Shown piece by piece: positions 2,490 through 22,688 of a DNA stretch of 64,000 nucleotides. Both the position numbers and the translations under genes were made by a program. How positions within the stretch are numbered: the first letter of the stretch is position 1; each line of letters starts with the position of its first letter. A model generated the notes under the pieces. It searched no databases, was not told the origin of the DNA, and saw only the letters and a program-made list of their open reading frames with translations. Source of the DNA: Shinella curvata (GTDB taxonomy: Bacteria > Pseudomonadota > Alphaproteobacteria > Rhizobiales > Rhizobiaceae); the NCBI RefSeq assembly GCF_022899935.1, contig NZ_JALJCJ010000001.1, positions 1,195,696 through 1,259,695 on the forward strand, read 5' to 3'.

Positions 2490-2501
2490 GTCAAAATCGT
2501 T

Positions 2502-4046: not shown

Positions 4047-4180
4047 CACCGGCGACTGAAAATGGCCTGAAAGCCGGTCGCGCGTTAGCTGTGATCGGAA
4101 CTGAAAGACAAGGCCTCGAAGTATTTGAAATATAATAGCCTGAATCAGCCGTGTGCTGCATCTGTGCTACCTTCGAGCGC

Positions 4181-5143: not shown

Positions 5144-5179
5144 GGAAACCCGATAAGTGATGCGGCTTGGCAAGCTGAT

Positions 5180-7120: not shown

Positions 7121-7312
7121 AATTCCTTGGTCAAGCACCCGAATCGGGCGCACCCGTAACCCGCTGAAAAAGAAGGACAAAAGCCGCCTCCTCAGTCGCG
7201 CTACCATGCACGGCCTATCGGAATTTCGCAAGTGAGGAGAAAATCATCACACAGATTTTGAATATGTGTTGCTAATTTGTTCCTATCGGTTCAGCCCTCA
7301 CAGGTGTTTGCA

Positions 7313-7723
7313 TCAGCTACCCAAGAATTCGCTAAGCAGCTTCGCGAGCCCCGAACCTCTTTTGATTTGGCACTCCCACAGCACTAAAATATCCCACCCC
7401 CTAGCCATGAGCAGTTCTTCGTTTTTCCGGTCTCTCTCTTTGGTTCTGGCCAGCTTGGGCTGCCAGTAGTCAATTCGAGACTTTGGAAGCTTTGAGAGAC
7501 GGCACCGTTCGTCATCATGGCTATGCCAGAAGCAACCGTTTACAAAAATCACTTTCCGGCGCCCGCGAAAGACCAAGTCCGGTTTCCCTGGCAGGTCTTT
7601 AGCGTGCAATCGGTACCGATAGCTCATCGAATGAACGAGCTTTCGGATCACCATCTCAGGTGCCGTATCCGTACTCCGGATGCGGGACATGATCCAGCTT
7701 CGATGGGTAGGGGGACCAATCAT
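7313..7723 (-). CDS. vsr: Very short patch repair endonuclease
   Basis: A 136-residue Vsr protein from the ATG at 7723. This gives 11 residues before the conserved IMSRIRSTDTAPE segment, as in E. coli Vsr; an upstream ATG at 7810 would add a 29-residue leader. Vsr nicks 5' of T in the T:G mismatches that arise by deamination of 5-methylcytosine. The active-site pattern is present: KDLPGKPDLVF with the metal-binding Asp, then VNGCFWHSHDDERC with His residues, then YWQPKLARTKERD and WECQIKRG. It is the first gene of the vsr-dcm-HNH set, and such genes typically accompany C5 methyltransferases. Confidence 0.9.
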   Translation of the reverse strand: MIGPPTHRSWIMSRIRSTDTAPEMVIRKLVHSMSYRYRLHAKDLPGKPDLVFRGRRKVIFVNGCFWHSHDDERCRLSKLPKSRIDYWQPKLARTKERDRKNEELLMARGWDILVLWECQIKRGSGLAKLLSEFLGS

Positions 7724-8120
7724 ATTCTTGGTTGTCACCTCGAATGGTATCGCAAGAAGAAGCGTCGCCACCAAACAGCCACGCGATTTGCTGTTGCGCA
7801 TTGCTCCCATTTTTACCTAGCAAAATGCACATATCCTGACGTTCTGGAAAGAGACGAAACAGATAGCCTTAATCTCGTAGGGCAACACTTCCTCAGCACA
7901 GGCTAAAGTGTCTCCGCTGATTCGCAGCACAGCCTTCAGTATAAAGACGCTGTTTTTGCAAACTTGGGACGAATCGAAGTCGCCCCTTGATCGGTGCGAA
8001 ATTTAATCGGCTGATCGCTGAACTGTCAGAACGTCGTCAAGCCGGCTTTCAAAATCAGTAGTTGCCTTTATGGGCACAACGCCACATTGTATTCGTGTGG
8101 AGATGCGGATTGGGGGAGTG
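7724..8120. other. Divergent intergenic region with repeat copy A
   Basis: About 400 bp between vsr (leftward) and the TIGR04141 gene (rightward). It should carry both promoters. It also contains the first copy (7833-7880) of an imperfect direct repeat whose partner lies just after the TIGR04141 gene. I see no RNA gene. Confidence 0.5.
7833..7880. repeat. Imperfect direct repeat, copy A (pairs with 9884-9930)
   Basis: Forty-eight bases aligning with 9884-9930: shared ATCCTGA, GTTC, GGAA, GAGAC, AGCCTT and a perfect ATCTCGTAG end. The two copies flank the TIGR04141 gene in the same orientation. Confidence 0.6.
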
Positions 8121-9764: not shown

Positions 9765-9883
9765 CTCGGGACGGCGGTGTTGATGAACACGATCATTGGA
9801 CGCCATTTTGTGCGGGCGAGCCGCGAATATCCGAAGACTCAATGAACGATCATGTGATGGACCAAACCTAAGAAAATTTACAA

Positions 9884-9930
9884 ATCCTGATGTTCGGAAG
9901 TGAGACAGTAGGAAAGCCTTGATCTCGTAG
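9884..9930. repeat. Imperfect direct repeat, copy B (pairs with 7833-7880)
   Basis: Forty-seven bases in the same orientation as copy A, about 120 bp after the TIGR04141 stop. The 3' part (AGCCTTGATCTCGTAG) is best conserved. It lies about 90 bp before the small tyrosine recombinase gene. Confidence 0.6.
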
Positions 9931-10021
9931 AGTAATTTTCAGTTGGCGTCAGGGTCTCGCCCTTGCTGCTCATCGGCAACATAACGAACGGCATGGAAAA
10001 GCTGCCTTTCGTGAGGTTTTG

Positions 10022-10591
10022 ATGAAACAAGCTCGGGTTTTAACGGATGCGGAATTCAAGCGGCTGCTGGCGGTGGTCGCGCAGATGAAACATGCGGGAC
10101 GTAACCGGCTGGCGCTGATGCTGTCGCATTTCGCTGGATTGCGCGTCGGTGAGATTGCCGCGCTGACCGTGCGAGATGTAATCGACGGCGATGGCAAGGT
10201 GCGCGAGCAATTGCGTCTGAGCGCGGAAGTCACCAAGGGCGGGCATGCGCGTGTCGTATTTCTGAACGACAAGCTCCGCCGGGAGATCGAAAAACACCGA
10301 GGCGAATGGTCCGAAGACCGGGCAGCCGACATGCCGTTGCTGCTAACACAGAAACGCACGGCATTTTCCGCGAACACGCTCTGCCAACTGTTGGGACAGC
10401 TTTACCGGAGTGCCGGTCTCGACGGGGCGACCTCGCATAGCGGTCGCCGCTGGTTCATCACCCGGCTTGCACATTCGGGTGTCAGTCCGAAGGTCATCAT
10501 GACACTCGCGGGACACCGCAACCTGACAACGACGCAGCGATACATAGACGTGCGCGACGAGATGATGAAGGCGGCTGTCGATCTGTTATAG
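10022..10591 (+). CDS. Small tyrosine recombinase (catalytic domain only)
   Basis: A 189-residue XerC/D-like protein starting at the ATG at 10022 (GTGAGG 5 bp upstream; the TTG just before it is less likely). All catalytic residues are in place: Arg41 (GLRVGE), Lys72 (VTKGGH), His139 and Arg142 (HSGRR), His165 (AGH) and Tyr174 (RYID). The N-terminal core-binding domain of normal 300-residue recombinases is missing, yet the start signal is good. This is therefore a stand-alone short form like those seen on rhizobial plasmids, not an obvious fragment. It may resolve multimers of the element or act on nearby repeats. Confidence 0.8.
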   Translation: MKQARVLTDAEFKRLLAVVAQMKHAGRNRLALMLSHFAGLRVGEIAALTVRDVIDGDGKVREQLRLSAEVTKGGHARVVFLNDKLRREIEKHRGEWSEDRAADMPLLLTQKRTAFSANTLCQLLGQLYRSAGLDGATSHSGRRWFITRLAHSGVSPKVIMTLAGHRNLTTTQRYIDVRDEMMKAAVDLL

Positions 10592-10619
10592 CCGCAGTTG
10601 TCGTGAAACACGGCATAGG

Positions 10620-11027
10620 TCATGGCGTCACAACACGTCCACGCAGCAACCAACCGACAAGCCGCTGTATGAACGGTGCGGAGTTGGTAGAAGTCGGCAG
10701 GCGCTCTTGCGGTTTCTCCTCGGTCGTCTGGTGCCGTTTTAGCCAATCCAGCATGTCGGTGCGGTGCGTGCGGCAACGTTCGCGGCGCTCGGCTTCGGCG
10801 TTCAGCCGTAAAATCTCCACGTCATCGTCGAAAATAGCGTTGTGTAGTTGCCCGGCGAGAAACGTCATGACCTCATCCGGCACCTTTCTGTCTCGGGCGC
10901 TCATTGACGTGAGATAGCTTGGTCCCTTGCCGAGCATCCGCGCTGAAAAATCGGCCTTGCTTTGCACGAGCCCCACCTGCTGCATGCGCTCGCAGACGTT
11001 TTCCAGAAATTCGATGTCATTGTTCAT
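10620..11027 (-). CDS. DUF6626-like protein
   Basis: A 135-residue protein with AGGAGG-type ribosome site upstream of the ATG at 11027. The first 65 residues (VGLVQSKADFSARMLGKGPSYLTSM) resemble the DUF6626 family of rhizobial plasmids and phages. That family looks like a small helix-turn-helix that senses or binds DNA, although its function is not known. Residues 70-135 are charged and variable. It is convergent with the small recombinase and divergent from the HUH replication gene, a position that would suit a regulator of replication. The family assignment is from memory of the pattern and is moderate. Confidence 0.5.
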   Translation of the reverse strand: MNNDIEFLENVCERMQQVGLVQSKADFSARMLGKGPSYLTSMSARDRKVPDEVMTFLAGQLHNAIFDDDVEILRLNAEAERRERCRTHRTDMLDWLKRHQTTEEKPQERLPTSTNSAPFIQRLVGWLLRGRVVTP

Positions 11028-11148
11028 TTCGCTCCCTCCTTCAATACCTGCGGTTCTGACCTGTTTGACGCAGAGTTCTGCTGCTGACCGCTAAATAACT
11101 GAGATATTTATCGGAACGATGCTGCTGAAGGAGCAGCAGGAGGACGGC

Positions 11149-11712
11149 ATGGAGCATAACAATAAAGAACAACGTCGACGTCTGCGGGACGCCTATATGA
11201 AACTCGGGCTGCAAATGCAGCCGAATGCCTTTGTCACCCTGACGACGAATGACACGGCCAAGACCGACCCTCGCGAGAAGAAAGATCAAAAGAATGGACC
11301 ACCCAAGGCGCTGACGTGGAGATATCAGGGCGAACCGAAGGTGTCGGAGATATCGAAGACGCTTGATATGACACGTTTGATCGGTGAATACCTCGCCATG
11401 ATGGACAGGGCACTGCTCGGCCGGAATTGGAGCCAAGTTTCACCTGATCAGCGCACCGATGGTCTTTTCATCATCGAGCATACCAAAACGAATATCCACG
11501 CCCATGGGCTTCTACGCTTTCCGGCCGCGAAGTGCCACGATCTTGAAGTCCTGACGCTGATGAAGTGGAACCGGCTGACGCAATCCGGCGACACGGATTT
11601 TCAAGCGATCTACGATTTGGCTGGCGCGGCCGGGTACTGCATGAAAGAAATGGCTAGCGTGCAATTCAGCCCTGATCAGGCCGTCCTCGCCCGGCAGTTT
11701 CACACTACCTGA
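11149..11712 (+). CDS. HUH endonuclease, rolling-circle replication initiator-like
   Basis: A 187-residue protein from the ATG at 11149, with a perfect AGGAGG 5 bp upstream. The three motifs of HUH nickases are visible in order: a FVTLTTN strand (about 28-34), the metal-binding NIHAHGLLRF segment with His117 and His119, and GYCMKE with the candidate nicking Tyr163 and Lys166. Such enzymes nick one DNA strand and stay bound to the 5' end, starting rolling-circle replication or transfer. No helicase domain is fused. It suggests the island has, or once had, a circular replicating form. A paired inverted repeat just downstream (11849-11891) is a candidate target. Confidence 0.65.
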   Translation: MEHNNKEQRRRLRDAYMKLGLQMQPNAFVTLTTNDTAKTDPREKKDQKNGPPKALTWRYQGEPKVSEISKTLDMTRLIGEYLAMMDRALLGRNWSQVSPDQRTDGLFIIEHTKTNIHAHGLLRFPAAKCHDLEVLTLMKWNRLTQSGDTDFQAIYDLAGAAGYCMKEMASVQFSPDQAVLARQFHTT

Positions 11713-12038
11713 CACATACGTTCGCAATGACACCACCCTGGCCTCGCCGGTGGTCCCTCGTGCGCACGGATTGGCATAACGATTGCTGCTTTCCCAGAGC
11801 GGCAGTTGAAAACCATGAGTAAATGACAAGGTTCAAGAGAACCAAAGACGTCTTCGAAATACATGCACAGACCCTGATACGGTCGAAGACGACAAAGACT
11901 CGAATATCAAGACTATCTAAAATCTCGCCGAATGATCCGTCCGGATCGAATTTCCCCCGAACTAAACGAAACTTTCTAACGTCTCATTAGCCTCCGGCAT
12001 GCGAGGTTTTTTCCCGATGCCAATGGAGCAACGGGCGC
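11713..12038. other. Gene-free 326-bp region after the HUH gene
   Basis: Contains the 9-bp inverted repeat at 11849-11891 and an internal 10-bp palindrome AAGACGTCTT (11845-11854). I see no convincing coding frame here. The 3' part before 12039 should hold the promoter of the HNH gene. Confidence 0.5.
11849..11891. repeat. Inverted repeat, candidate replication or nick site
   Basis: Arms CGTCTTCGA (11849-11857) and TCGAAGACG (11883-11891), 25 bp apart. It lies about 140 bp downstream of the HUH initiator-like gene. No T-run follows, so it is not a simple terminator. Confidence 0.5.
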
Positions 12039-12707
12039 ATGAGCCTCCGAACGAAGCGCGTGCGCGCCTATAATGAACAGAATGGCCGCTGCTATTACTG
12101 CCAGTGGCCGATGTGGGAGCGTGCTTTCGAGCCAGAAGATCACGCGCTTAAACGCGTCACAGCCCTACGCAGTCACAAAACCGATCCCGTTTCCAATCTG
12201 CAAAGCTTCGAATGCACCGCCGAGCATGTCGTGCGACTAGCCGATGGCGGCACCGACGACAGCTCTAACATCGTTGCTGCCTGCCTCGCCTGCAACAGTG
12301 CGCGCAACCGCGCGGCTTCTGCCGATTGGCAAGTTGATCGCACAGCAGCTAACCAATTCGAGGACGCGGGCCAGGACAAAGGCTTTGATGATGCCTTTTA
12401 CGAGATACCCGGTCTGACACAGCAATATCGCTTCAAATGGCATTACAACTTCTTTGTGGAGAAACCGCGCTGGGAGGTCGAAGTCGCAGCAATGAAGCTG
12501 GGCGACTTTTCAACGGTCGGCAACCGATACCAAACCGCCGATAGCATATCGCTGATCTATCCGGCGTTCATGGACGAGGACGACTTTGCGCGATCGGGTG
12601 AGATATTCGCGCAGCACCGGGTAATCCCCGGCGCTCAGATCATGCTGGAAAATCCCGCGCATGAAGCCGCGTTGAGGGCGGTGTTCGCAAACGCGGTCGT
12701 AAAATGA
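12039..12707 (+). CDS. HNH endonuclease domain protein (222 aa)
   Basis: Residues 1-95 form an HNH/zinc nuclease fold: CYYCQ near residue 18, the key CTAEHVVRLADGGTDD segment near residues 59-74, and NIVAACLACNSARN closing the zinc site. This spacing resembles McrA/HNH proteins that cut DNA. The last 100 residues contain several Trp, Phe and Tyr residues and match no domain I know. The closest upstream purine-rich site (GGAG) is about 12 bp from the ATG. It sits between the HUH gene and a block of unknown genes on the opposite strand, with a shared terminator. It may act in defence or in processing the element's DNA. Confidence 0.7.
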   Translation: MSLRTKRVRAYNEQNGRCYYCQWPMWERAFEPEDHALKRVTALRSHKTDPVSNLQSFECTAEHVVRLADGGTDDSSNIVAACLACNSARNRAASADWQVDRTAANQFEDAGQDKGFDDAFYEIPGLTQQYRFKWHYNFFVEKPRWEVEVAAMKLGDFSTVGNRYQTADSISLIYPAFMDEDDFARSGEIFAQHRVIPGAQIMLENPAHEAALRAVFANAVVK

Positions 12708-12708
12708 A

Positions 12709-12740
12709 AATAGCGGCAGGACCGAAGCCCTGCCGCTATT
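12709..12740. terminator. Bidirectional terminator
   Basis: Perfect 12-bp stem AATAGCGGCAGG / CCTGCCGCTATT with an 8-nt loop, lying between the convergent genes that end at 12707 and 12742. Confidence 0.85.
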
Positions 12741-12741
12741 C

Positions 12742-13347
12742 TTACCATAGATCGTCCTGACGCTTCAGCCTGTCCAAAAGGAATGACCGGGTTTCGCCTT
12801 TCGGCTCTTCTTCCGGAGGTCCTTCAAGTTCACCGAACAGGTCTTGCAGATATCGCCGCTGGATTACCCGGCGATAGCTATCTTCTCCGAACTCACCCGT
12901 CTTTTTCAGGCGCGGTAGTGGAAACTCCTCGATGACCTCCCGCGCCGCCTGATAAGCTTCGTTGGCAGGGGCGTGGATATCGGCCTCATAAACTATGAAG
13001 GCCGCTTCATCAGGGGTTCCCTCTATACGCTCGCGGTAGCTTTCCACGAGCCGTTCGGCCTCGTTGACGAACTGCCGACGGGTTTCCGCAGACAGTTGCT
13101 TGCGATTGATCGCAAAGCCTATCCTGCGCATGAGGTCATCACGCTTGTCATTCCATTCTATAGCAGCCTTGGAAGCCGAAATGGAAAGATCGGTCTTGGC
13201 CTCCTCGTCGTAGGCGGCATAGCTGCTGCCGAGCAGGCGTTTCATGTCCGTAGAATGAACAGTCTGACCGCCAGCAAGTTCGTCTAGGGCGATGCTGGTA
13301 CAGCCGGCGAGCAAGCGTTTGGCTACATATTGATTAAAATCAATCAT
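12742..13347 (-). CDS. Hypothetical protein (201 aa)
   Basis: I do not recognise this family. It begins with a good GGAGG 5 bp before the ATG. The 201-residue product is soluble, rich in charged helices (Glu/Arg/Lys) and has no signal peptide or membrane segment. A central stretch around residues 75-125 looks like a long amphipathic helix. The tail after residue 165 is acidic then basic. It is preceded by the terminator of the 281-residue gene and so probably has its own promoter. Its position within a replication and recombination block suggests an element-maintenance role, but there is no direct evidence. Confidence 0.65.
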   Translation of the reverse strand: MIDFNQYVAKRLLAGCTSIALDELAGGQTVHSTDMKRLLGSSYAAYDEEAKTDLSISASKAAIEWNDKRDDLMRRIGFAINRKQLSAETRRQFVNEAERLVESYRERIEGTPDEAAFIVYEADIHAPANEAYQAAREVIEEFPLPRLKKTGEFGEDSYRRVIQRRYLQDLFGELEGPPEEEPKGETRSFLLDRLKRQDDLW

Positions 13348-13368
13348 TTGTTCCTCCGGGCCAAACAG

Positions 13369-13389
13369 AAAAAGGGGGCTTTCGCCCCC
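13369..13389 (-). terminator. Terminator of the 281-residue gene
   Basis: Stem GGGGGC / GCCCCC with a 4-nt loop. Read leftward it is followed by a T-run (A-run on the plus strand at 13368-13373). Confidence 0.8.
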
Positions 13390-13399
13390 GATTTCATGT

Positions 13400-14245
13400 T
13401 CAAGCCGCTGCCTTCAGGTTCAATGCAGCAAGGAAGCCTTCCGGCAAATCTGCTGTCTTGAAGCGAGGATCAAGTTCAAAGGCATCCTTGACTTTCTCCC
13501 ATGCCTTGGCAACGATTTCCACGAGGCCGGCTACATCGGTGGCTCCGAAGAGAATATCGCCGCCGCCGTCACTTGCCTTCCTGACGACCATCAGGCCGAG
13601 GCCGTTGCTATCGAAGGCAACGTCGGAGACGATTTCCTTGGAGAGCGTCGTGCGACCCTTCATGAAGTTGACCTTCACGGGGATTTCACTCGGCTTGTTG
13701 CCGCCACGCGCGCCGCCAGCTTCCCGGCTTGCGCGTTCGAGCTTGCGTAGCGCCTCGATCCCGGTGGTCTTCTTCCCGTTCGTATCGACATGGACGGCAT
13801 TGTTGATCGCGTCCGTGATTTGATCGAGGGAGACCAGGGTTTCGTCTTTCAGCAACTGGGTCATCGGATAAGCGTAGTTCTCGAAGGAACGAAGCTTACC
13901 GCCCTTGTCGTGAAAGATCGTCCGCATGATCGGCAGAAGCATGTTACTCTGGCCGAGTTTGGATTTCTCCTTATCGGTCAGGTCCATGCCAGCGATCTTC
14001 TTAAGATCCGGTGGCATCTTGACGTCAAGGGCCTTCATCAGATTGATGAATTCCTTGACCTTCGCGATGTCGCCCAGCGTCTCGCGGACGAACAACGCGG
14101 TCTGTGCAAACAGACCGGCACTGTCGAGGTCGAGTTTGGTTTGTCTGTCAACCAGGCCTACGGCGGTAGCGGCAAGCACCTTGATACGTGCTGCTACGGT
14201 ATCGGTAGGCTTGGTGATCAATGCGGTTTTCAAAAGTTCGCTCAT
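13400..14245 (-). CDS. Hypothetical protein (281 aa)
   Basis: The ATG at 14245 (AAGGAC 8 bp upstream) is preferred; the frame continues upstream without a good start. The product is helical and soluble, with no signal peptide, and is of a family I do not recognise. Residues 1-120 contain repeated Leu/Ala heptad-like helices. Residues about 190-281 look like a compact alpha/beta domain (VKVNFMKGRTTLSKEIV, then LGLMVVRKASDGGGDILFG). It lies behind an AT-rich 325-bp region and in front of a strong terminator, so it is probably a single, well-expressed gene of the island. A role in partition or replication control is possible but unsupported. Confidence 0.65.
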   Translation of the reverse strand: MSELLKTALITKPTDTVAARIKVLAATAVGLVDRQTKLDLDSAGLFAQTALFVRETLGDIAKVKEFINLMKALDVKMPPDLKKIAGMDLTDKEKSKLGQSNMLLPIMRTIFHDKGGKLRSFENYAYPMTQLLKDETLVSLDQITDAINNAVHVDTNGKKTTGIEALRKLERASREAGGARGGNKPSEIPVKVNFMKGRTTLSKEIVSDVAFDSNGLGLMVVRKASDGGGDILFGATDVAGLVEIVAKAWEKVKDAFELDPRFKTADLPEGFLAALNLKAAA

Positions 14246-14570
14246 TTGCAACGTCCTTGTTCTCGGTGGCCGAAGCCATCCAGTTGGATGTGACGCCCCG
14301 ATCGGATGATCGAAGCCCGCAAAGCAACCCGGCGCACAGCGCCGTGAAAACAATTCAATTTGCAAAGAACACAGCCGGAGGGCTGTCGGAAAGCAATGCC
14401 TTCCTACGGGCGAAGAAATATCACAGGGATCACTATTGTAAAGCCGGAAGTATATTAATGGATAACGATAGATTAATATTGAGAGTGAAATTTTATTAAA
14501 ATTATAATTATAAATTTCTTCATATATATGAAGAATATTTCTGATGATCTTCTGGCTTGCTCAACATAGC
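14246..14570. promoter_or_regulatory. AT-rich regulatory or origin-like region
   Basis: From about 14430 to 14570 the sequence is strikingly AT-rich in an otherwise GC-rich window. It holds a perfect 20-bp palindrome (14516-14535; half-site TTCTTCATAT) and several TTAAAATTATAATTAT-like runs. It lies upstream of the 281-residue gene and downstream of the DUF2958-like gene. It could be a promoter with an operator or a DNA-unwinding element. Confidence 0.45.
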
Positions 14571-15347
14571 TTATTTCACATTGCTGCGATAGAGCAGATA
14601 GTCATCATAGATCGTACGTGAGCGCAATCCCGCTAGCACCGGATGTTCCCTGTGCGCTTGGTCGAAAACGCTGGCAACCGCTTTTGATGACGGCGGGGCA
14701 TCGAGCCGGGACACATTGCCGGTCAGTGGCAGTTCGGCAAGCTCCGGCTCTTCGACAATCTTGCCGGTCATCACGCCAGCCTCCAGATATGCGCTGATCG
14801 GCATGGTGGCCGAGAATGCTTCGTCGCGGATGAGATCAATGCCGAGCATCGGGCGCAACGCCATTATGTCAGAGACCCAAAGCGGCTGAAACACCGGGCC
14901 AGCATCGGTTAGATTATGCAGGGCATCGACTGCATGTCCACAAAGTCGGGTGCGGGTCAGCAATAGGACGGCGTTGCCATTCGGATCGTAGAGCCGAGCG
15001 ACCGGCGGGAAATTTGCATTCGGCCGCGCATGCCAACGCAGACAACGAAGCAGGGTTTCTGGGAACAACCGCCGATATCGGCCGGGGTGGTCCATCTCGT
15101 GGACGGTGATGATTTTGCCCTCGGTCAGCGCGAACAGCAGAATTGCTCGCCATGACAGCGCCGATAGGTAGCTACGCTGATGCAACTCGCCATCGACCTC
15201 GTAGCTCAGGTTCAGCGCCGTGCCTTTGCGCTTGATCTTGTAGAGACGTTCGGACCCCACATGCAGGTCGGTCATAAAGAGCATGGCAAGGTCGATTTGT
15301 GCCTGCGTGGGCTTGCTGTCGTGATCGTCGCTTGAAGGGGGCTGCAT
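14571..15347 (-). CDS. DUF2958-like domain protein (258 aa)
   Basis: The ATG at 15347 has GGAGA 4 bp upstream and gives 258 residues; the longer open frame to 15521 begins without a ribosome site and overlaps inverted-repeat DNA. The second half (FPPVARLYDPNGNAVLLLT, LWVSDIMALR, GIDLIRDEAF, PISAYLEAGVMTGKIVE) resembles the DUF2958 domain, a family common on alphaproteobacterial plasmids and without known function. The first 110 residues are not recognised. There is no signal peptide. It is probably an accessory protein of the plasmid-like part of the island; the match is by eye only. Confidence 0.5.
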   Translation of the reverse strand: MQPPSSDDHDSKPTQAQIDLAMLFMTDLHVGSERLYKIKRKGTALNLSYEVDGELHQRSYLSALSWRAILLFALTEGKIITVHEMDHPGRYRRLFPETLLRCLRWHARPNANFPPVARLYDPNGNAVLLLTRTRLCGHAVDALHNLTDAGPVFQPLWVSDIMALRPMLGIDLIRDEAFSATMPISAYLEAGVMTGKIVEEPELAELPLTGNVSRLDAPPSSKAVASVFDQAHREHPVLAGLRSRTIYDDYLLYRSNVK

Positions 15348-15570
15348 CTGGTCTCCGCTCGTTTTCGGCGGAACAAAATTCCAAATGGCGCAAAGAGCGA
15401 GTTCAAAGTGCAGCCGGGCGGAACAGTAACAGCGCGCGGGGGTTCCGGGGTGAGATTTGCGGCAACGTGCGTCAAACAGAAGCTCAGAAGCATCAAGGAA
15501 TGCGGTCCGGCCCGGAAACATTGCGGCATAGCGTACCGACCCGGACGCGCGTCCGTGGCGCTCTTTGACA

Positions 15571-15593
15571 GCGTTCCGGCCTTGCCGGAACGC
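15571..15593. repeat. Inverted repeat 1 of a tandem pair
   Basis: Ten-base arms GCGTTCCGGC / GCCGGAACGC around CTT, perfectly matched and directly next to the longer palindrome at 15595. Confidence 0.75.
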
Positions 15594-15594
15594 A

Positions 15595-15632
15595 CGAAGG
15601 CCATAGGATCATTCATGATCCTATGGCCTTCG
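15595..15632. repeat. Inverted repeat 2: 38-bp near-perfect palindrome
   Basis: Eighteen-base arms (15595-15612 and 15615-15632; each arm has CGAAGGCCATAGGATCAT or its complement) around only two bases. It begins 28 bp after the stop of the DUF6641 gene. No T-run follows on either strand, so it is not a typical terminator. Confidence 0.8.
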
Positions 15633-15659
15633 GATGCTTGCCCGCGAAAACTACGCGGT

Positions 15660-16106
15660 TTATTTCGGCTTGCGCAGCATCTGGCCGCGCTCGGTGGCAG
15701 CAGCGGTGAGTTGCGCGTCCAGTTCACCAGCCCGGACAGCTTCGACTAGCGTGTCGATGACCTTCGGCAGTGCCGAAAGCTCGCCAGCTTCGATGGCGTT
15801 CTTGTCCTTAGCGAAGTCGATGGCCTTGCCGGCATAGCGCAGTGCGAAAAACACCTTGCCGTTGCCGTCGGTGAACCAGCCCTGACGCACGCGCTTGGGA
15901 GCTTCGACGTCGACGCGGACACCTTCCGCGTTCTTCTTGCGCACGACATGCGTGGGCGTGAACGCCTGACCGGCGATCTTCGCCTCGGCCATCTGCTTCT
16001 GTTCGGCCAGCGCCGCGATCATCTTTTCCCGCGCACGCTGTACCGGATCGACGGCAGCGCGAACCGGGACTGCGGAGGTGAGCTTGAGAGCCTTGAGGTG
16101 GGACAT
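15660..16106 (-). CDS. DUF6641 family protein
   Basis: A 148-residue protein from the ATG at 16106 (AAAGGA 7-8 bp upstream; the open frame continues to 16259 without a good start). It fits the DUF6641 pattern of rhizobial and other proteobacterial plasmids: LKALKLTSAVPVRAAVDPVQ, REKMIAALAEQKQMAEA, a Lys/Arg-rich middle, then GWFTDGNGKVFFALRYAGK and a helical end with AGELDAQLTAAA. Its function is not known. It is divergent from the NucS-like gene, sharing a 155-bp promoter region, and is followed by two large stem-loops. Its presence supports a plasmid-related origin for this part of the island. Confidence 0.7.
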   Translation of the reverse strand: MSHLKALKLTSAVPVRAAVDPVQRAREKMIAALAEQKQMAEAKIAGQAFTPTHVVRKKNAEGVRVDVEAPKRVRQGWFTDGNGKVFFALRYAGKAIDFAKDKNAIEAGELSALPKVIDTLVEAVRAGELDAQLTAAATERGQMLRKPK

Positions 16107-16261
16107 GCTGTGATCCTTTCCGAGACCGTTGAACGTGTTTCCCGGATACAGCCGTCTGCCAAAAGGGCGAGCAAAGAATGGGTTTGGAGGCCCGTTGTAA
16201 CCAAGAGGTAATCCGTTCCGGCTATCCCTCTGAGTTGCAAAGAATGGTGTAGGGGGCATTC

Positions 16262-16963
16262 ATGGTTCAGCGGCATAGTGTGGTCATCGCGAAGGACGAC
16301 GGCGGGCTTGAGGTCTATCCACTGAAACAATGGCTTCGGCAGAACCCCGACCATTTGCCGGCGGGCATGGATGGCGCTCGCAACACGTCGCATCAATTGC
16401 GTGCGGCACTTCGACAAGCCGGGTGGACGATGCAGGAAACGCCTGATGAAATCCGTATGATCTTTCCCGGACACTCAGCCCGCATCGATGCTGTCGATGA
16501 AGTCTTGGGTGGGACCGACGAACCGGTCGGTGAAAGCGATGAAGGCATTCCCTACTTTTCGCTGGAGTATCAGCTACGGGATTTCCTTGCCACGAACCTG
16601 TCGTCCATTGATTTCGGCGGGCGCAAACTGAGCGTCTATGTCGATCCGACCGGCAGGGATGGCGTTGAATATGCAACGGCGGTCGGGCCAATCGACATTC
16701 TCGCTGTCGATGAGACGGGCGCATTCTTCGTCTTCGAGCTGAAACGAGCGCAAAGTTCCGACCGCGCTTTGGGGCAGATCACCCGATACATGGGGTGGGT
16801 GAAACAGACTATCGGGCGCGACAAGGACGTGTCCGGTATCATCGTGTCGAAGTCCGTCAGCCGAAATCTGAAGTACGGCCGAACCGTCGTGCCGAATGTC
16901 TACCTGTTCGAATATGCAGTCAGCTTCAGCGTGGCCCCGGCTCACGACATCGACCCGTTATAG
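16262..16963 (+). CDS. DUF91 / NucS-type endonuclease domain protein
   Basis: A 233-residue protein. Residues about 95-190 resemble the C-terminal nuclease domain of NucS (DUF91, PD-(D/E)XK fold): VEYATAVGPIDILAVDETGAFFVFELKRAQSSDRALGQITRYMGW, with the Asp of GPIDIL and the Glu-x-Lys of FELKR as the expected metal and catalytic residues. NucS enzymes cut branched or mismatched DNA. The first 95 residues are different from NucS and may be a separate recognition domain. The ATG at 16262 is directly after the divergent promoter of the DUF6641 gene. On a mobile island it may have a role in defence, repair or element processing. Confidence 0.7.
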   Translation: MVQRHSVVIAKDDGGLEVYPLKQWLRQNPDHLPAGMDGARNTSHQLRAALRQAGWTMQETPDEIRMIFPGHSARIDAVDEVLGGTDEPVGESDEGIPYFSLEYQLRDFLATNLSSIDFGGRKLSVYVDPTGRDGVEYATAVGPIDILAVDETGAFFVFELKRAQSSDRALGQITRYMGWVKQTIGRDKDVSGIIVSKSVSRNLKYGRTVVPNVYLFEYAVSFSVAPAHDIDPL

Positions 16964-17057
16964 ACACGCTTCCGATGACGGCGGGGCCCTTCCGTGCTGT
17001 GACAATTTTAACGTGTTTTTCAACGCGACGTAAAAGGGTGCAGCTTACTCGTGTTTC

Positions 17058-17321
17058 ATGAGCAAGTTTCCTCTGATCGTCGCAGGCACTTGGATGACCG
17101 TATTCCTCGGAACCGGAGGCTACGCATTCGTGCCGCGATCCCTCTACGATCCGGCCTGTGACATCAAGGGCAATATCTCGATAAACTCGGGCGAACGCAT
17201 CTACCATGTCCGTGGCCAGGAATATTACGACGAGACGGTCATCCGGGGGGAATATGGGGAACGCTGGTTCTGCACCGAGGACGAAGCCCGCAACGCGGGC
17301 TGGCGCAAAGCAGGTAGATAG
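17058..17321 (+). CDS. Small exported protein with sunset-type domain
   Basis: An 87-residue protein with a hydrophobic N-terminal segment (residues 5-24), probably a signal peptide or anchor. The rest carries CDIKGNISINSGERIYH, YYDETVIRGEYGERWFC and EDEARNAGWRKA. This pattern is found at the C-terminus of rhizobial thermonuclease-like proteins and in small periplasmic proteins called sunset-domain proteins. Two conserved Cys residues could form a disulphide. The molecular function is not known. It lies five bases from the stop of the convergent flagellin gene. Confidence 0.6.
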   Translation: MSKFPLIVAGTWMTVFLGTGGYAFVPRSLYDPACDIKGNISINSGERIYHVRGQEYYDETVIRGEYGERWFCTEDEARNAGWRKAGR

Positions 17322-17326
17322 AGCGA

Positions 17327-19006
17327 CTACCGGAACAACTGCGCAACATTATCGGCATTGCCGTTGGCGATCTGCAACGACTGGATAGCAAGCTGTTCCT
17401 GTGTCTGGAGCGCCTTGAGCCGCGTCGATGCCTCGTTCATATCAGCATCGACAAGCCGGCCAATGCCCTTGTCGATGGATGCCATCAAGACTTGCGCGAA
17501 CTCGGTCTGCATATCGATGCGGGTCTTGAGCGCGCCGAGGGTGCTGGCACCGGATATGACCTTCTCCAGCATGGCATCGACGCCGAACAGATAGTTGTCG
17601 AGATCGTTGGCGGGATCGGTGATATCGACGTCGAGAATGTCGAAATCCGGCGCGGGGCCGAGATTGTCGGTGACATTGCCGATCCTCATATAGGCCCGGC
17701 TGCCTGCGTTCGGATACAGCGTCTTGTCGATGTCGAAGACGATCCCGCCTGCTATCGATGTGGCATCCAGACCGTGTCCTTCCAGAGCATAATCGAGAAG
17801 TGCCGCAAAAGCTCCTTCAGACGGTATTCTGCCATCGGTCGTTCCAAATACAAGATCGACCATATCGCGCGTAACGGTGATCGTCGTCACCGGATCGCTC
17901 CCTACCTGAATGTCGAAGCTGAACTCGATATCGCGGTAGATCGTGAACGGTCCGCTGAAGCTGAAGCTCCATTGCGGATACTGGTTATTGAGTTCGGACA
18001 GCGGTGTGTTTTCGAGACCTGCACCGAAGCTGCCCGAGCCAAAGCTCGATGTGACGCCAGTAATTTCGATGCTCGATCCGGGCAGTGCTGTCGTTTCCGC
18101 GCTTGAGATACCCAACCTATTGCCACCGGCCCATCCGGCAGAAGCCGGGACAGCATTGGCAGTGAATACATGGTCGAGGATGGCACCATAGTCCTGCGCA
18201 GTCGCCACGATGCCATCGCTCGTGCCAAGCGCGGCATCGACAGCAGCCCGGTCAATCACCAGCGTATGGCTGACGCCCGGAGCAAGCGGGCTGTCATCGA
18301 CCATGACGTCCAGCGTGATCGTATCGCTAGCCCCGAGTGTAAAGAGGCCGGTGAAGGCATAATAGCTTTGGGCTCGGCTGCTCTGCTGGTTGGTGTTCGC
18401 CCCACGAAAGCCGCCGATATCGCCAAGCGAACGGATATCCTTCTGCAAAGCCCCGCCGCCACCGACATTGAACAGGCTGAGATCAGCCATGTCGATTTCC
18501 GTCGTTCCGACATGCACATTACCGTCAGCGGAGCGGATGAAGGACGAGGTGATGCTGGTCGGCAATCCTGAGAGCCCGTTGATGTCCTGCGGAGCATTCG
18601 TGTTGAGCCAGTTGACGCCGTTGAAGCTGGCGGATGTTGCGATGGAAACAAACTGTTCCTTGAACTGATCAAGCTCGGTCTGGATCTTCGCCTTGTCCAC
18701 GCCGTCTTCTTTGGCGGCGACCAGCTTTGCCCGGAACTCCCCGAGCACGTCTACGGTGGCGTCGAGGCCAGAATAGGCGACATCGATCTTCGCAGCACCG
18801 AGCCCGAGCGCATCGGATACGGCGGAAAGCGCCATGTGGTCAGAGCGCATGGTCGTGGAGATCGACCAATACGCTGCGTTGTCCGCTGCGATCTGCACGC
18901 GCAGCCCGGAACTGACCTGCCGTTGCGTCTCGGCCATGTTGCTGCCGATCATGCGCAGGGTTTGCAGCGCGGCCATTGCGGAGGTGTTCGTCAGAATGCT
19001 GGTCAT
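17327..19006 (-). CDS. Flagellin carried on the island
   Basis: A complete 559-residue flagellin. The N-terminal D0/D1 part (MTSILTNTSAMAALQTLR to about residue 140, with SSGLRVQIAADNAAYWSI) and the C-terminal D1/D0 part (about 480-559, ending QLFR) are typical rhizobial sequences. Both ends are intact, so the protein should polymerise and be exported by the flagellar type III system. The central 340 residues are longer than in usual rhizobial flagellins (300-430 residues in total) and contain two internally similar segments (DTITLDVMVDD and DIEFSFDIQVGSD, each followed by a similar VDxxxGTxDGxI stretch). No other flagellar gene is nearby. A CtrA-type site lies about 75 bp upstream. The ribosome site is weak. 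Confidence 0.9.
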   Translation of the reverse strand: MTSILTNTSAMAALQTLRMIGSNMAETQRQVSSGLRVQIAADNAAYWSISTTMRSDHMALSAVSDALGLGAAKIDVAYSGLDATVDVLGEFRAKLVAAKEDGVDKAKIQTELDQFKEQFVSIATSASFNGVNWLNTNAPQDINGLSGLPTSITSSFIRSADGNVHVGTTEIDMADLSLFNVGGGGALQKDIRSLGDIGGFRGANTNQQSSRAQSYYAFTGLFTLGASDTITLDVMVDDSPLAPGVSHTLVIDRAAVDAALGTSDGIVATAQDYGAILDHVFTANAVPASAGWAGGNRLGISSAETTALPGSSIEITGVTSSFGSGSFGAGLENTPLSELNNQYPQWSFSFSGPFTIYRDIEFSFDIQVGSDPVTTITVTRDMVDLVFGTTDGRIPSEGAFAALLDYALEGHGLDATSIAGGIVFDIDKTLYPNAGSRAYMRIGNVTDNLGPAPDFDILDVDITDPANDLDNYLFGVDAMLEKVISGASTLGALKTRIDMQTEFAQVLMASIDKGIGRLVDADMNEASTRLKALQTQEQLAIQSLQIANGNADNVAQLFR

Positions 19007-19079
19007 GCAAGGAGCCTGCGGTGATGTTCTCCGTCAGCCGAACCAGCGTCCGCTCAAGTTGCAATGCACTCAACCCGCA

Positions 19080-19094
19080 TTAACGCTTCGTTAA
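19080..19094. promoter_or_regulatory. CtrA-type binding site upstream of flagellin
   Basis: TTAACGCTTCGTTAA followed by C matches the full CtrA consensus TTAA-N7-TTAAC known from Caulobacter and rhizobia. It lies 74 bp before the flagellin ATG and about 185 bp before the divergent recombinase. CtrA controls flagellar genes in many alphaproteobacteria. Binding here is inferred from the motif only. Confidence 0.6.
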
Positions 19095-19277
19095 CCATTG
19101 CGGCGTCACAACCAATGCTGAGAGCTGTGGTGATTTGCGTCGGCTTTCTTCCGATCCCGACACCTCCTTTCCGCAAGCCGCAGCCTTACGCCGGTGCAGC
19201 CATTTGCACCCCGCGCTCCCTCATGCTCGCCCGCCCGATAGCCCCATGTTAGCGGATCGCAACATGAGGAGGCCGTC

Positions 19278-20936
19278 ATGGGCACCGAAGACACCAACAA
19301 CAGCACCTTTCCGATCCGGGCTTACTCCTACGTCCGTATGAGTACTCGCAAGCAGCTTCGCGGGGACAGCCTGCGCCGGCAGCTTGAACGATCGAAGGCG
19401 TTTGCGGACGAACACTCTCTGCTTCTGGACGACAGCTTGCAGGACTTGGGCGTCAGCGCGTGGAAAGGCAGGAACTTCAAGACCGGCGCGCTCGGCCGGT
19501 TCCTGGCGATGGTCGAAAACGGGCAAATCCCCAAGGGCAGCTACTTGCTGATCGAAAGCCTCGACCGGCTATCACGCGAAGCCGTGCCGGATGCGTTGAC
19601 GCTATTCATGGCGATCATCAATGCCGGCATTGTCATCGTGACGCTTGGCGAGGACCGGCAGGTTTACAGTCGCGACCGGCTCAACGGTGACTGGACCAAG
19701 CTTATCATCGGGCTTGCGGTGATGTCGCGCGGTCACGAGGAGAGCCAGACCAAAAGCGAGCGCATCAGCGCGGTCGCGAAACGGAAACGGGAACTGGCCC
19801 GCGAAGGCAAGGGCCATATCACCAGCATAACACCCGCATGGATCGATGCCCGAAGGATCGATACGAGCCGTTACGAGTTCACGCTGAACCACCATGCGGA
19901 AACGGTGAAGGCGATTTATGAGATGGCAACGCGGGGGCTCGGTGCGACGGTGATCGCTCGCAAGCTCAACGCAGATGGCATTCCCGCTTTCAAGAGCCAG
20001 GACGGCTGGTATCAGAGTGTCATCAAGGCGCTGCTCGCCCGCCAGGATGTCATCGGCATATTCCAGCCGCACAGGATCGTTGACGGCAAGCGCGTGCCGG
20101 ACGGCGATCCGATTGCCGGCTACTTCCCTGCCGCGATCGACAAGGATTTGTTCCTGCAGGTGCAGGCCCTACGGAGCAATCCGGGCAAGCCCGGCCGCAA
20201 GGGCAACACCTTTGCCAATCTCTTCACCGGGCTTTGCCATTGCGCCCATTGCGGTGGGCCGATGACGATGAAGATGAGCCGGGTGAAGGGGAACGAGAAC
20301 GGGCGTTATCTGGTCTGCGCGAACTATGTGCGCGGGCATCGTTGCACCGATGGCAACCGGCATTTCCGATACGAGCCGCTCGAGGCGGCTATCGTCGATC
20401 ATGTCACAGAAATCAATCTTGCCGAGACGCTGCATGCGGCAAGGTTCGATGACACCGTGCGGGAGTTTGACGAGAGGATTGCCGAACTGGCCCTACAACT
20501 GGAAGAGCTTCGCAGAAAAGAACAGCGGCTAGCGCAGATAATCGAGGATGATAACGCGCCGCCAGATGCCGTGGTCGATCTGCTGAAGGCCCGGCAAAGC
20601 GAACGGAAGGCTGTCGAAGCCGAGCTACGGCACCAGCAGGCCGAAAGACAGCGCCGGTCAATTCGGCACGATAGCCCCATGGAAACATGCGACCTGATCG
20701 GCAGGTTGCGAGACGCGTGGGAGCAAGCTGACGATGCTGCCCGCTATGACCTTCGCTCGGAGGCGCATGCGGCCATCAGGGAGATCATCACGGAAATCGG
20801 CTTTGACAGTAGCGATTGCTCAACAACGCTGATCGTGGAAAACGGTATCGTCGTGCATCGGTTTGCCGAAGATCAAGCCTCTAGCCGACATCAAGTGTGG
20901 TATGCAGTGCCCCTCATGACAATGCCCGCCGCCTGA
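19278..20936 (+). CDS. Large serine recombinase
   Basis: A 552-residue serine integrase/resolvase with AGGAGG 5 bp before its ATG. The N-terminal catalytic domain has Tyr18, Arg20 and nucleophile Ser22 in SYVRMST, followed by SLRRQLERSK and LIESLDRLSRE. A Recombinase domain follows (about 190-290), then a zinc-ribbon with CHCAHCGGPM and a later Cys pair. A long coiled coil rich in Glu/Arg (about 390-460) comes near the end. Such enzymes integrate or excise phage-like elements or gene cassettes. It is divergent from the flagellin gene. It may have mobilised a sub-segment (flagellin plus neighbours) before the whole island entered the tRNA site. Confidence 0.88.
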   Translation: MGTEDTNNSTFPIRAYSYVRMSTRKQLRGDSLRRQLERSKAFADEHSLLLDDSLQDLGVSAWKGRNFKTGALGRFLAMVENGQIPKGSYLLIESLDRLSREAVPDALTLFMAIINAGIVIVTLGEDRQVYSRDRLNGDWTKLIIGLAVMSRGHEESQTKSERISAVAKRKRELAREGKGHITSITPAWIDARRIDTSRYEFTLNHHAETVKAIYEMATRGLGATVIARKLNADGIPAFKSQDGWYQSVIKALLARQDVIGIFQPHRIVDGKRVPDGDPIAGYFPAAIDKDLFLQVQALRSNPGKPGRKGNTFANLFTGLCHCAHCGGPMTMKMSRVKGNENGRYLVCANYVRGHRCTDGNRHFRYEPLEAAIVDHVTEINLAETLHAARFDDTVREFDERIAELALQLEELRRKEQRLAQIIEDDNAPPDAVVDLLKARQSERKAVEAELRHQQAERQRRSIRHDSPMETCDLIGRLRDAWEQADDAARYDLRSEAHAAIREIITEIGFDSSDCSTTLIVENGIVVHRFAEDQASSRHQVWYAVPLMTMPAA

Positions 20937-20946
20937 TGCGGTCAGG

Positions 20947-22476
20947 CTATGAACGTTGTCCACCGTACCTTTGCGAAAGTTTGTCAGCGGTGCGCTCGGT
21001 GGTCGCCCCGGCTTTCAACTCGGCTAAGCGTTTTTCCAACAAAGCGATTTCGTCGTAGGTCTCGTCGTCAAGCAGCTTCGGTTCCTTCATCAAGTCCTCC
21101 TCGCCGGGGCGAAGGAAGTCTTTGATCTGCTCGGTATTGACCTGGGCATAGTGCTTGTCGATCATCGAAATCGAAGTGCGGGTGTTACGGGCGACATGGT
21201 GGATCGAGACATTGTTGGCGAGCATCTGCGAGATATAGAAGTGCCGGAATGAGTAAGCGGTTCGCTTGACGCCTCGGTGGTCACGCTCCAAGTCGGCCGC
21301 TTTGAGCAAGGCGTTCAAGCCGCGCTGGAACGACAGGATGGGTTTGCCGCCTGCATCCGCAAAGACAGGATCGTCATCAGTGGGCTCGCGACCGACCTCG
21401 CTTACAAACACGTTCCACAACATATGAAGCGCCTGGATTGCACCATGCAGAGGCACGGCATTGCCATGCTTGCTTTTTCCGTGGACTTGTAGCCGGGCGT
21501 CCTGCTGGAAAAGGGGAAGGTCTTTTGTATCGCGATAGCGGAGAATATTGCTCCACTTGAGGTTCTTTGCCTCCGTGGGGCGCAGGCCCGAACTGGCCAT
21601 GAATTCGATATAGGCGTGCAGACGGATACGATCCGACCGCACGCGGCTGGTGAGCGTGCTTTGCGTCCAGACCCGACCGTCTTTCGCCTTGATGAGCCTG
21701 ACTGATTGCTGAGGCTCGCTGATCCGCTCCAAGCTCTTTCCGAGCAGACGTTCGTATTCCTCCGGCGCGAACCCGGGACGGCGCGTGTCGGGTTTCTTTT
21801 TCGCTCTGACGGCCGGGATTATGATCGGCTTGCAATAGCCCCATTTCGCCGCCTGCTCGAATAGCTCGCGGATGATGACCATCTCGCCCTTGACCGTGCT
21901 CAAGGCTGCGACCTTCCGCGGTGCAGGGCGAATAAAAACCCGGCCATCTTCGCGTTCGCATCGGATTTTCTGAATGTGAATGCCGGGGCCCGTCGTCCAA
22001 TAGGTCTTACGCCATTCCAGATATCGTTCGATGTCGGCGGTGGTGATCGTCTCGATGGCGCGGTCCCCGAAGTAACCCACAGGGAAACGGCGAATGATCG
22101 GTGGCCAATAGATCGGGTGATATTTGCTGCGTTCGTCGCGCTCGGCCTCTGCGACGACTTTTTCGATGAACTCTTCCGCCACCTCGACAAAGGAGCGGCT
22201 ATCCAGCGAAAGGCCCTGCTTGTTGCGAAAGCTCTGCTCGTGCCAGATTTCGTAGGCGCGTTGCAGCGCCTCTTCCTGGTTCGCGGTTCCCAGCGTCCTT
22301 TTGTATTGCTTGCCGCCGAGCGAATATCGCATCGACCAGTTCCGCGTGCCTTCTCGCTGGAAGAGCGAAAACGGGGTCTTCTTCGTTGAGGCCGGGCTTT
22401 GCAGCATAACGTGGGGCACCTTTCGAGTTGCTATGGTCGGTGCGCTGCGCTGAAACTGCGCTAGCGACGTGTCCAA
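20947..22476 (-). CDS. int: Island integrase (tyrosine recombinase)
   Basis: A 509-residue phage-type integrase. An N-terminal arm-binding part, a SAM-like core-binding domain (about 95-215) and a catalytic domain are present. Catalytic residues are Arg299 (SGLRPTE), Lys334/336 (GKSKHG), Arg411-His412 (YSFRHF) and Tyr443 (KHYAQ). The usual first His of box II is Tyr/Ser and the third-box GH is replaced by NTRTS, a variant common in proteobacterial island integrases. The C-terminus has a Glu/Lys-rich tail. The gene is 135 bp from the 3' end of tRNA-Arg and reads away from it, so it almost certainly catalyses insertion at the 45-bp repeat. Confidence 0.92.
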   Translation of the reverse strand: MDTSLAQFQRSAPTIATRKVPHVMLQSPASTKKTPFSLFQREGTRNWSMRYSLGGKQYKRTLGTANQEEALQRAYEIWHEQSFRNKQGLSLDSRSFVEVAEEFIEKVVAEAERDERSKYHPIYWPPIIRRFPVGYFGDRAIETITTADIERYLEWRKTYWTTGPGIHIQKIRCEREDGRVFIRPAPRKVAALSTVKGEMVIIRELFEQAAKWGYCKPIIIPAVRAKKKPDTRRPGFAPEEYERLLGKSLERISEPQQSVRLIKAKDGRVWTQSTLTSRVRSDRIRLHAYIEFMASSGLRPTEAKNLKWSNILRYRDTKDLPLFQQDARLQVHGKSKHGNAVPLHGAIQALHMLWNVFVSEVGREPTDDDPVFADAGGKPILSFQRGLNALLKAADLERDHRGVKRTAYSFRHFYISQMLANNVSIHHVARNTRTSISMIDKHYAQVNTEQIKDFLRPGEEDLMKEPKLLDDETYDEIALLEKRLAELKAGATTERTADKLSQRYGGQRS

Positions 22477-22555
22477 GCCCCGGAAAGCTACCTTGAAATC
22501 ATTGAAGAATTCCCAAGCGCATGCGCTACTGGGCTAGGACTGAGCTAGCTTATTT
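22450..22555. promoter_or_regulatory. Candidate integrase arm sites near the right att
   Basis: Several related motifs lie between the integrase start and the tRNA: AACTGCGCTAGC (about 22452), GCGCATGCGCTACTGGGC (about 22518) and CTAGGACTGAGCTAGC (about 22527). They resemble GGACTAGGAATGCGCTACC found near the left att. Their dense clustering at both ends fits integrase or excisionase binding. They also overlap the likely int promoter. Confidence 0.4.
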
Positions 22556-22611
22556 CCAGTCCGCATGAGGACAAGCTAAGACTGATAAATCAATGATTTC
22601 AAGTAGTTCGG

Positions 22612-22656
22612 TGGCGCACCCGACAGGATTCGAACCTGTGACCTTTGGAATCGGAA
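22612..22656. repeat. Right attachment repeat within tRNA-Arg
   Basis: Identical over 45 bases to 3751-3795 and in the same orientation. It covers the anticodon loop to CCA end of the tRNA. Confidence 0.9.
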
Positions 22657-22688
22657 TCCAACACTCTATCCAGCTGAGCTACGGGTGC
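22612..22688 (-). tRNA. tRNA-Arg (anticodon CCG)
   Basis: A complete 77-nt tRNA on the minus strand. The acceptor stem GCACCCG pairs with CGGGTGC, followed by discriminator G and encoded CCA. The D-arm has AGCTCAGCTGG. The anticodon stem TTGGA / TCCAA encloses TTCCGAT with CCG at positions 34-36, reading CGG arginine codons. The T-arm has GGTTCGAATCC. The 3' 45 nt are the attachment core of the island; the element reconstitutes the gene on integration, so the tRNA stays functional. Confidence 0.95.

Follow-up and report, generated by a model that had tools for sequence, protein, structure and literature searches.

The existence of mobile flagellins is already known. In Salmonella, Hin/FljB phase variation depends on Hin, a small invertase with inverted hix sites, and in Escherichia coli flk lies on an excisable island with an integrase and a fliC repressor. 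In this study, a 64,000-nt stretch of the Shinella curvata genome (hereafter the window) was analyzed, in which an integrated island carries a single accessory flagellin gene. The E. coli loci flkA, fllA, flmA, and flnA are likewise imported extra flagellins, located away from fliC and specifying new H antigens (PMC7018530, PMC548302). They belong to a different bacterial class and are likened to the island by description only. The nearest known case, the Enterobacter FRphi prophage with TldR-FliCP, is also a mobile element with a flagellin very unlike that of its host in the outer domains (PMC13418256). FRphi changes the identity of the filament (PMC13418256), as the Shinella island would. 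The prophage is active and temperate and encodes an RNA-guided TldR repressor of the host flagellin (PMC13418256), whereas the Shinella element is a tRNA-Arg island with a CtrA-type box and a serine recombinase, in a host already equipped with several flagellins. No TnpB/TldR-like match and no phage structural match was obtained when 17 open reading frames (ORFs) of the island were scanned with Pfam.

As in the Salmonella system, a serine recombinase is found next to the flagellin promoter, and a pair of putative elements surrounds this promoter; unlike Hin, the enzyme is a large serine recombinase of 552 aa, the elements are direct and weakly alike, and no inversion of a flagellin was found. 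A lone flagellin on an accessory replicon has been described in a relative, Rhizobium leguminosarum, where FlaE (302 aa) is highly similar to the main flagellins and falls outside the enlarged-centre family described below (PMC2936354). Marine flagellar gene islands likewise contain flagellin and hook genes together with integrases, but as blocks of many flagellar genes rather than as a single flagellin in an exchangeable slot (PMC3478194). No paper on island-borne flagellins in rhizobia was found in the open-licence literature searched by titles and the starts of abstracts. Judged by that literature, the island family, the CtrA-type promoter, the shared slot, and the link to a recombinase appear to be new.

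An intact accessory flagellin on a tRNA-Arg island

The island flagellin gene is acquired, intact, and selected, and is carried on an integrated element. A sequence-only reading of the window had described its product as a complete 559-residue flagellin with conserved ends, and both points were confirmed. The ORF is intact, and its product matches Flagellin_N (PF00669, E 8.7e-32) and Flagellin_C (PF00700, E 5e-13), both above the curated cut-offs. The protein has the D0/D1 filament fold. Its AlphaFold model has a mean predicted local distance difference test score (pLDDT) of 82.8, low confidence at the D0 ends being usual for a monomeric flagellin model, and the top match in a structure search was the Sinorhizobium meliloti filament 7sn9. 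In the model, the centre (residues 141-475) contains duplicated alpha/beta outer domains (about 205-320 and 337-447), which are alike in a pairwise comparison (27.5% identity over about 80 residues, E 4e-10). Residue 164 is the common start of four database fragments (P0020, P0041, P0043, and P0075); nothing was drawn from them because truncated genes with an internal start codon would account for them equally well.

The closest relatives of the window flagellin are those of loci L045 and L046. Across these three, the ratio of nonsynonymous to synonymous substitutions (dN/dS) is 0.07-0.08 for the whole gene, at dS of 0.42-0.53. For the centre it is 0.06 and 0.09 relative to the window flagellin and 0.06-0.22 across the four pairs measured, and no sign of dN exceeding dS was found in the pairs of family flagellins measured. 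The low ratios indicate that the gene is maintained under purifying selection.

The island is 18.9 kb long (3751-22656) and has an exact 45-bp direct repeat at both borders (Table 1). In two genomes of the same genus (G010 and G013) the island is absent, and the conserved flank, which in the window ends near 2490, lies 270-330 bp from the 45-bp sequence; the tRNA at this empty site was confirmed in G010. An integrase, repeats that include the 3' end of a tRNA gene, and an empty site in relatives mark the element as a tRNA island, and the integration proposed in the sequence-only reading is thus borne out. Two further claims of that reading also stand: a Pfam scan of 30 ORFs between 318 and 32601 revealed no other flagellar match, and restriction-type genes (C5 methylase, Vsr, and HNH/MTaX1) are present on the same element. 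The island has a GC content of 0.553, compared with 0.583 in the flagellin gene and 0.636 in the flanks. Both borders were also located for flagellin islands in G012, G009, G002, G365, and G233 (about 16-23 kb) and for a flagellin-less island (L156; 9.8 kb).

Six PF00669 matches, including the island gene, were identified in the host genome. The other five are on contig C13, where three flagellins and one FlgL-like protein form a cluster and a lone flagellin is located away from it (G000:C13:642703-643098; L005, L051). Compared with the host-encoded flagellins, the island protein is conserved at its ends (60-64% identity at the N end, 58-67% at the C end) and strongly divergent in the centre (19-25% over the 61-98 alignable columns). 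A midpoint-rooted tree was built from the ends only, using 224 columns of 98 sequences (48 members of the island flagellin family and 50 other flagellins sampled). In this tree 37 of the 48 family members form one clade (support 0.89), and the remaining 11 are grouped separately (support 0.91), closer to certain core flagellins. The lone host flagellin branches beside the island family, and the flagellins of L153 (an Agrobacterium metagenome-assembled genome, MAG) and L154 (Ciceribacter) adjoin the Shinella trio.

The sequence-only reading had itself raised the possibility of an ordinary core flagellin whose locus was interrupted, and split off, by the island. This explanation was rejected and is extremely improbable: the gene is enclosed by the attachment repeats, the flagellin cluster of the host is on a different contig, the empty site holds no flagellin, and the ends-only tree sets the island flagellin apart from the sampled core flagellins. 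A change in plant recognition had also been suggested. The flg22 epitope, which we take to be at residues 28-52 of the window protein, lies in a stretch that is nearly the same in island and host flagellins, so that no such change is expected there, and this suggestion was not borne out.

A phage origin of the island was considered and rejected. Capsid, terminase, and portal proteins had no match among the 17 island ORFs in Pfam or among 10 ORFs in PHROGs, and tblastn of the island flagellin against 50,697 phage records gave no match. Only the tRNA reached the Rfam gathering score between 3600 and 23000. In a megablast search, about 1% of the island query was covered on plasmids among the 20 matches listed, and no record covered 80%. 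Several features of the borders were also observed. The segment between the conserved flank and the left repeat (2492-3750) contains a gene for an RTX calcium-binding protein and is missing in both empty-site genomes. Just inside the left attachment repeat are two 87-nt direct repeats (3789-3875 and 3935-4021; 78% identical), and 19-nt copies related to them occur near the right end of the island (22445 and 22529). In G012, three tRNA-Arg attachment repeats in a row (L099:3851 and 17773, L045:19079) apparently reflect two islands in tandem.

The CtrA-type box and the spread of the flagellin family

Control of the island flagellin by the host through a CtrA-type promoter had been proposed from a TTAA-N7-TTAAC site. 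The box is present; its end had been placed at 19094, which is wrong by one position (Table 1). It is the sole exact match in the window (0.04 expected by shuffling), and the 6.07-Mb genome has 36 strand-matches as opposed to 15 for the pattern read backwards. Exact boxes were also found in two places (C13 88983-89023) just upstream of one host core flagellin (ORF start at 88898). Among the family, an exact box on either strand occurs within 300 nt upstream in 20 of 48 loci, compared with 12 of 612 control upstreams (Fisher's test 3e-17, the related sequences not being independent). As controls we took the regions upstream of other ORFs (150 aa or longer) within the stretches that contain the family loci; the order-1 Markov expectation is 0.08. 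Not counted among the 48 are six loci that duplicate places already included, the host-encoded flagellins, and L057, a family locus with an in-frame stop. The positions of the boxes are clustered, at -87 to -99 in 11 family loci and at -222 to -247 in nine. Being in the promoter and commoner than chance in the family, the box qualifies as a candidate CtrA-regulon motif, in line with the proposal. In S. meliloti, flaA, flaB, and flaC are under direct CtrA control (PMC4433202).

The family is spread sporadically across genera. Among 394 genomes from 109 genera of the Rhizobiaceae, the host family, the flagellin centre was detected (E 1e-10) in 40 genomes and 22 genera, including 6 of 21 genomes of the host genus; some of these matches are weak or partial. 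A protein search with the centre alone (7996 candidates sharing most words were scored) returned 109 proteins, the majority about 550-570 aa long. All 42 carrier genomes searched have two or more PF00669 matches. The search for similar flagellins on other islands that the sequence-only reading had proposed was successful, yielding related islands that include those of the five genomes named above. In the distant islands, flagellin identity is 43-90% at the N end, 43-81% at the C end, and 23-64% in the centre; for the backbone it is 54-95% (DUF6641), 51-89% (integrase), and 58-85% (DUF2958). Scans of a genome-contig collection gave no relative with the flagellin and 16 loci with the DUF6641 alignment.

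No flagellar cluster near family flagellins was found when 41 host ORFs of the C13 flagellar region (not all of them flagellar) were searched against the fetched stretches other than L153-L168. The matches were to flagellins and their antisense shadows, with single matches in L063 (a hook piece), L117, L104, and L106; the remainder came from unannotated ORFs at the edge of the query region. Among plasmids, 191 records matched the flagellin, 15 of them with a single place covering at least 80% of the query. On the four gene-tabled plasmids inspected (two further ones are unannotated) the family flagellin is a lone gene, and little is named as defence in the incomplete gene tables.

Adjacency to tRNA genes was noted at family loci as a side observation. 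In eight loci, a conserved ORF of about 215 aa, absent from the window, lies directly upstream of and in line with the family flagellin (companion ORF, Table 1). Two companion ORFs scanned had no Pfam match, and no solved relative was found at E 1; among the 120 homologues listed, two contain PF14281, a PD-(D/E)XK domain. A viral-contig scan gave four loci with flagellins. One of these (L209:3796-5532) is a full-length family-like flagellin (48% identity) that adjoins a DDE transposase on a contig with terminase, capsid, and portal genes; flagellins therefore do enter probable prophages elsewhere.

A shared slot and a neighbouring serine recombinase

The gene content beside DUF6641 was compared in 25 distinct loci with this gene; weak or short matches in G075, G199, G134, and G399 were excluded, and two loci (the window and L046) entered the census via their flagellin. 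The flagellin is present in 12 of the 25 loci, always on the DUF6641 strand. It lies between DUF6641 and the integrase or recombinase in nine of these and between DUF6641 and DUF2958 in two (near-identical MAGs); the last, L168, has no tyrosine integrase within the fetched stretch. Anti-phage-type genes fill the slot in 5 of the 13 flagellin-less loci: an OLD-like ATPase (L156), RmrA (L164), a weak PDC-S32 (L166), GajA (L096), and a type I R subunit (L098, with a weak, distant integrase match). In L161 the slot is taken by a split hook gene, and in L094 by two ORFs, of which the one scanned had no match. The slot is only 67-159 bp long in L162, L163, L165, L167, and L093, and its gap is undefined in L160. 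The scan covered ten ORFs, of which seven belong to loci that have no flagellin. In L045, RmrA is present in addition to a flagellin. Across the 394 genomes, DUF6641 is strong in 12 and the flagellin is present in 40; both occur in nine, including the genome of the window (hypergeometric 8e-8), and are within about 6 kb of each other in eight of these, being apart in G273. The defence role suggested in the sequence-only reading is supported as regards context only, by the anti-phage-type genes that fill the slot in those 5 of 13 flagellin-less loci.

An imported, silent flagellin carried as a neutral passenger would be hard to reconcile with strong purifying selection, with promoter boxes clustered by position, or with the presence of the gene in 12 of 25 related loci, and we consider this explanation quite improbable.

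The serine recombinase gene occurs in 8 of the 25 loci, seven with a flagellin and one with a hook gene, and 5 of the 17 recombinase-less loci have a flagellin (Fisher's test 0.0016, the islands being related; 6 of 6 against 5 of 17 when the two flagellin-found loci are omitted). It lies beside the slot in seven of the eight; that of L168 is elsewhere and has 36% identity to the recombinase of the window (L070 copy of the locus). A putative 47-nt element, S1, is common to all seven islands with a recombinase beside the slot, upstream of the recombinase gene, and a second one, S2, is located 120-140 nt from it in the window, L045, L046, L153, L154, and L048. The S1 and S2 of the window match at 20 of their 47 positions and are directly oriented. 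They enclose the CtrA box, an arrangement that no more than hints at a promoter switched by the recombinase. The pairs of L154 and L048 are instead found ahead of the companion ORF.

Leave-one-out S1 models found a second copy 120-130 nt off in L153 and L048 (scores of 13.0 and 13.0, compared with maxima of 10.3 and 11.0 in 40 shuffles) and none in the window, L045, L046, or L154. A model of S2 built from L153 and L048 found S2 in the window (32.4 vs. a shuffle maximum of 13.8), L045, L046, and L154. It also picked S1 in the window (20.8), L045 (16.9 vs. 14.7), and L046 (19.2 vs. 15.4); S1 of L154 was not above shuffles. Nothing above shuffles was obtained with it in the recombinase-less L065 and L047, and the more distant recombinases of L067 and L070 had no S1 match (best scores 9.0 and 6.2).

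In L161 (Rhizobium rhizogenes 17-2069-2c; 7759-9990), a hook (FlgE-like) gene next to the serine recombinase is split into two parts that lie on opposite strands. A second element copy, missed by the S2 model, lies 1.7 kb from S1 (leave-one-out 11.8 vs. 5.0), and the promoter-side part of the hook gene is located between the two copies, on the strand opposite to the rest. This suggests a rearrangement by the recombinase. The G233 island, which also has a family flagellin, contains a hook piece without its N-terminal part (L063:422-1150). Hook-piece searches gave local matches in 176 of the 394 genomes, the one known to fall in such an island being that of G233, and of 32 stretches of islands and flanks searched by tblastn with the host hook, only L161 and L063 gave matches.

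It is doubtful that the recombinase turns the flagellar gene on and off through rearrangement of the promoter region enclosed by the 47-nt elements, an explanation that would be compatible with the accessory filament subunit favoured below. The restriction of the recombinase to loci with a flagellin or a hook, the S1 elements aligned in seven islands with S2 close by in six, the lack of S2 above shuffles in L065 and L047, and the opposite-strand hook part of L161 all point toward such a switch. Against it, elements in direct orientation by themselves predict deletion and not inversion, and S1 and S2 are weakly alike. The S1 model misses S2 in four islands, and the S2 model misses S1 above shuffles in L154 and also misses the L161 copy. 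Furthermore, no flagellin with parts on both strands was found in the loci searched, nothing outstanding was seen among inverted repeats around the island flagellin, the L067 and L070 recombinases lack an S1 match, and the arrangement in L161 could be explained by an assembly error or by a rearrangement that is no longer active.

Table 1. Features of the Shinella island (window coordinates) and companion ORFs of related loci (locus coordinates).
Feature	Position	Strand	Remarks
Left attachment repeat	3751-3795	+	45 bp, identical to 22612-22656
HNH endonuclease with MTaX1 domain	4181-5173	-	Cargo
DNA C5-cytosine methylase	5180-7231	-	Cargo
Vsr-type nicking endonuclease	7313-7810	-	Cargo
DUF6119 / TIGR04141 protein	8070-9764	+	Cargo
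DUF2958 protein	14571-15521	-	Island backbone gene
DUF6641-like protein	15660-16259	-	Backbone gene used for census; Pfam E 1.4e-5, 25.6 bits vs. cut-off of 27
NucS C-terminal-type nuclease	16262-16963	+	Resembles PADLOC candidate PDC-S02
Accessory flagellin	17327-19006	-	ATG start, intact ORF, 559 aa; conserved ends 1-140 and 476-559
Element S2, putative	19028-19074	+	47 nt, in flagellin leader
CtrA-type box TTAA-N7-TTAAC	19080-19095		Exact on +, 8/9 on flagellin strand; near edge 74 nt from ATG
Element S1, putative site	19168-19214	+	47 nt, 63 nt before serine recombinase gene
Serine recombinase	19278-20936	+	552 aa; Resolvase, Recombinase, and Zn-ribbon domains; between tyrosine integrase and flagellin
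Tyrosine integrase	20947-22476	-	509 aa, adjoins tRNA
Right attachment repeat	22612-22656	+	3' part of tRNA-Arg(ccg) gene 22612-22688 (- strand)
Companion ORF	L154:6074-6721		About 215 aa (this and the following)
Companion ORF	L048:11260-12027
Companion ORF	L065:11136-11831
Companion ORF	L014:9118-9753
Companion ORF	L016:9071-9700
Companion ORF	L050:7927-8694
Companion ORF	L111:1192-1920
Companion ORF	L114:8197-8871

Possible roles of the island flagellin

Based on these comparisons, we favour, at a probability of roughly one half, an accessory flagellin that is co-regulated with the host flagella, is co-assembled with the host flagellins, gives the filament a new surface, and likely changes its recognition by flagellum-binding phages. 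The gene would be switched on together with the host flagella through CtrA, and its product is predicted to be exported and to enter the host filament; such co-assembly is likely, judging by the conserved ends. The enlarged outer domains would then provide a new outer surface, which would likely alter recognition by flagellum-binding phages. Phages of this type are known for Agrobacterium (7-7-1, Milano, GS2, and GS6; PMC9266447). On this reading the benefit would be owed to phages and not to motility or adhesion; the other contents of the slot make such a benefit plausible, and no more than plausible.

Several observations weigh against this reading. A variable centre is usual for flagellins (PMC7018530), and other backbone genes vary too in the same island comparisons (integrase 53-89%, DUF2958 58-79%), so that divergence alone does not show phage pressure. 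The dN/dS of the centre is low in all four pairs (0.06-0.22), and an exact box within 300 nt is absent in 28 of the 48 family members. At most a mixed filament is expected, since no TldR-like repressor was found among the island ORFs scanned. The authors of the Enterobacter FliCP study judged phage resistance an unlikely driver and found motility and immune effects (PMC13418256).

The island may instead spread an ecological trait with no phage link, the flagellin being a filament subunit that tunes motility or adhesion through a thicker or stiffer filament with larger outer domains. Plasmid-borne FlaE of R. leguminosarum is a minor filament component with strain-dependent effects on swimming (PMC2936354), and FliCP, with its enlarged outer domains, raised motility in Enterobacter (PMC13418256). 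The median length of 582 aa for the 48 family members, vs. 324.5 aa for the 50 other flagellins sampled, fits this explanation, as do the relatives that are lone genes on large plasmids with little named as defence in four incomplete gene tables. It leaves unexplained the anti-phage-type slot genes in 5 of the 13 flagellin-less sister loci, and we regard it as possible but less probable than the accessory subunit with altered phage recognition. An extended form of the latter is unlikely: a mobile switch of flagellar identity, in which an exchangeable flagellin or hook gene occupies the slot shared with anti-phage genes and the recombinase, acting on paired sites around the CtrA promoter, toggles it, so that the population would always hold cells mismatched to the prevailing flagellum-binding phage.

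Mobile flagellins are known as prophage cargo in Enterobacter; here they form a family found over many plant- and soil-associated genera of Alphaproteobacteria. The island provides a testable case of a flagellar surface traded among bacteria in the manner of O antigen, in a group with known flagellum-binding phages. The link to the recombinase, if true, would represent a new type of flagellar phase switch.
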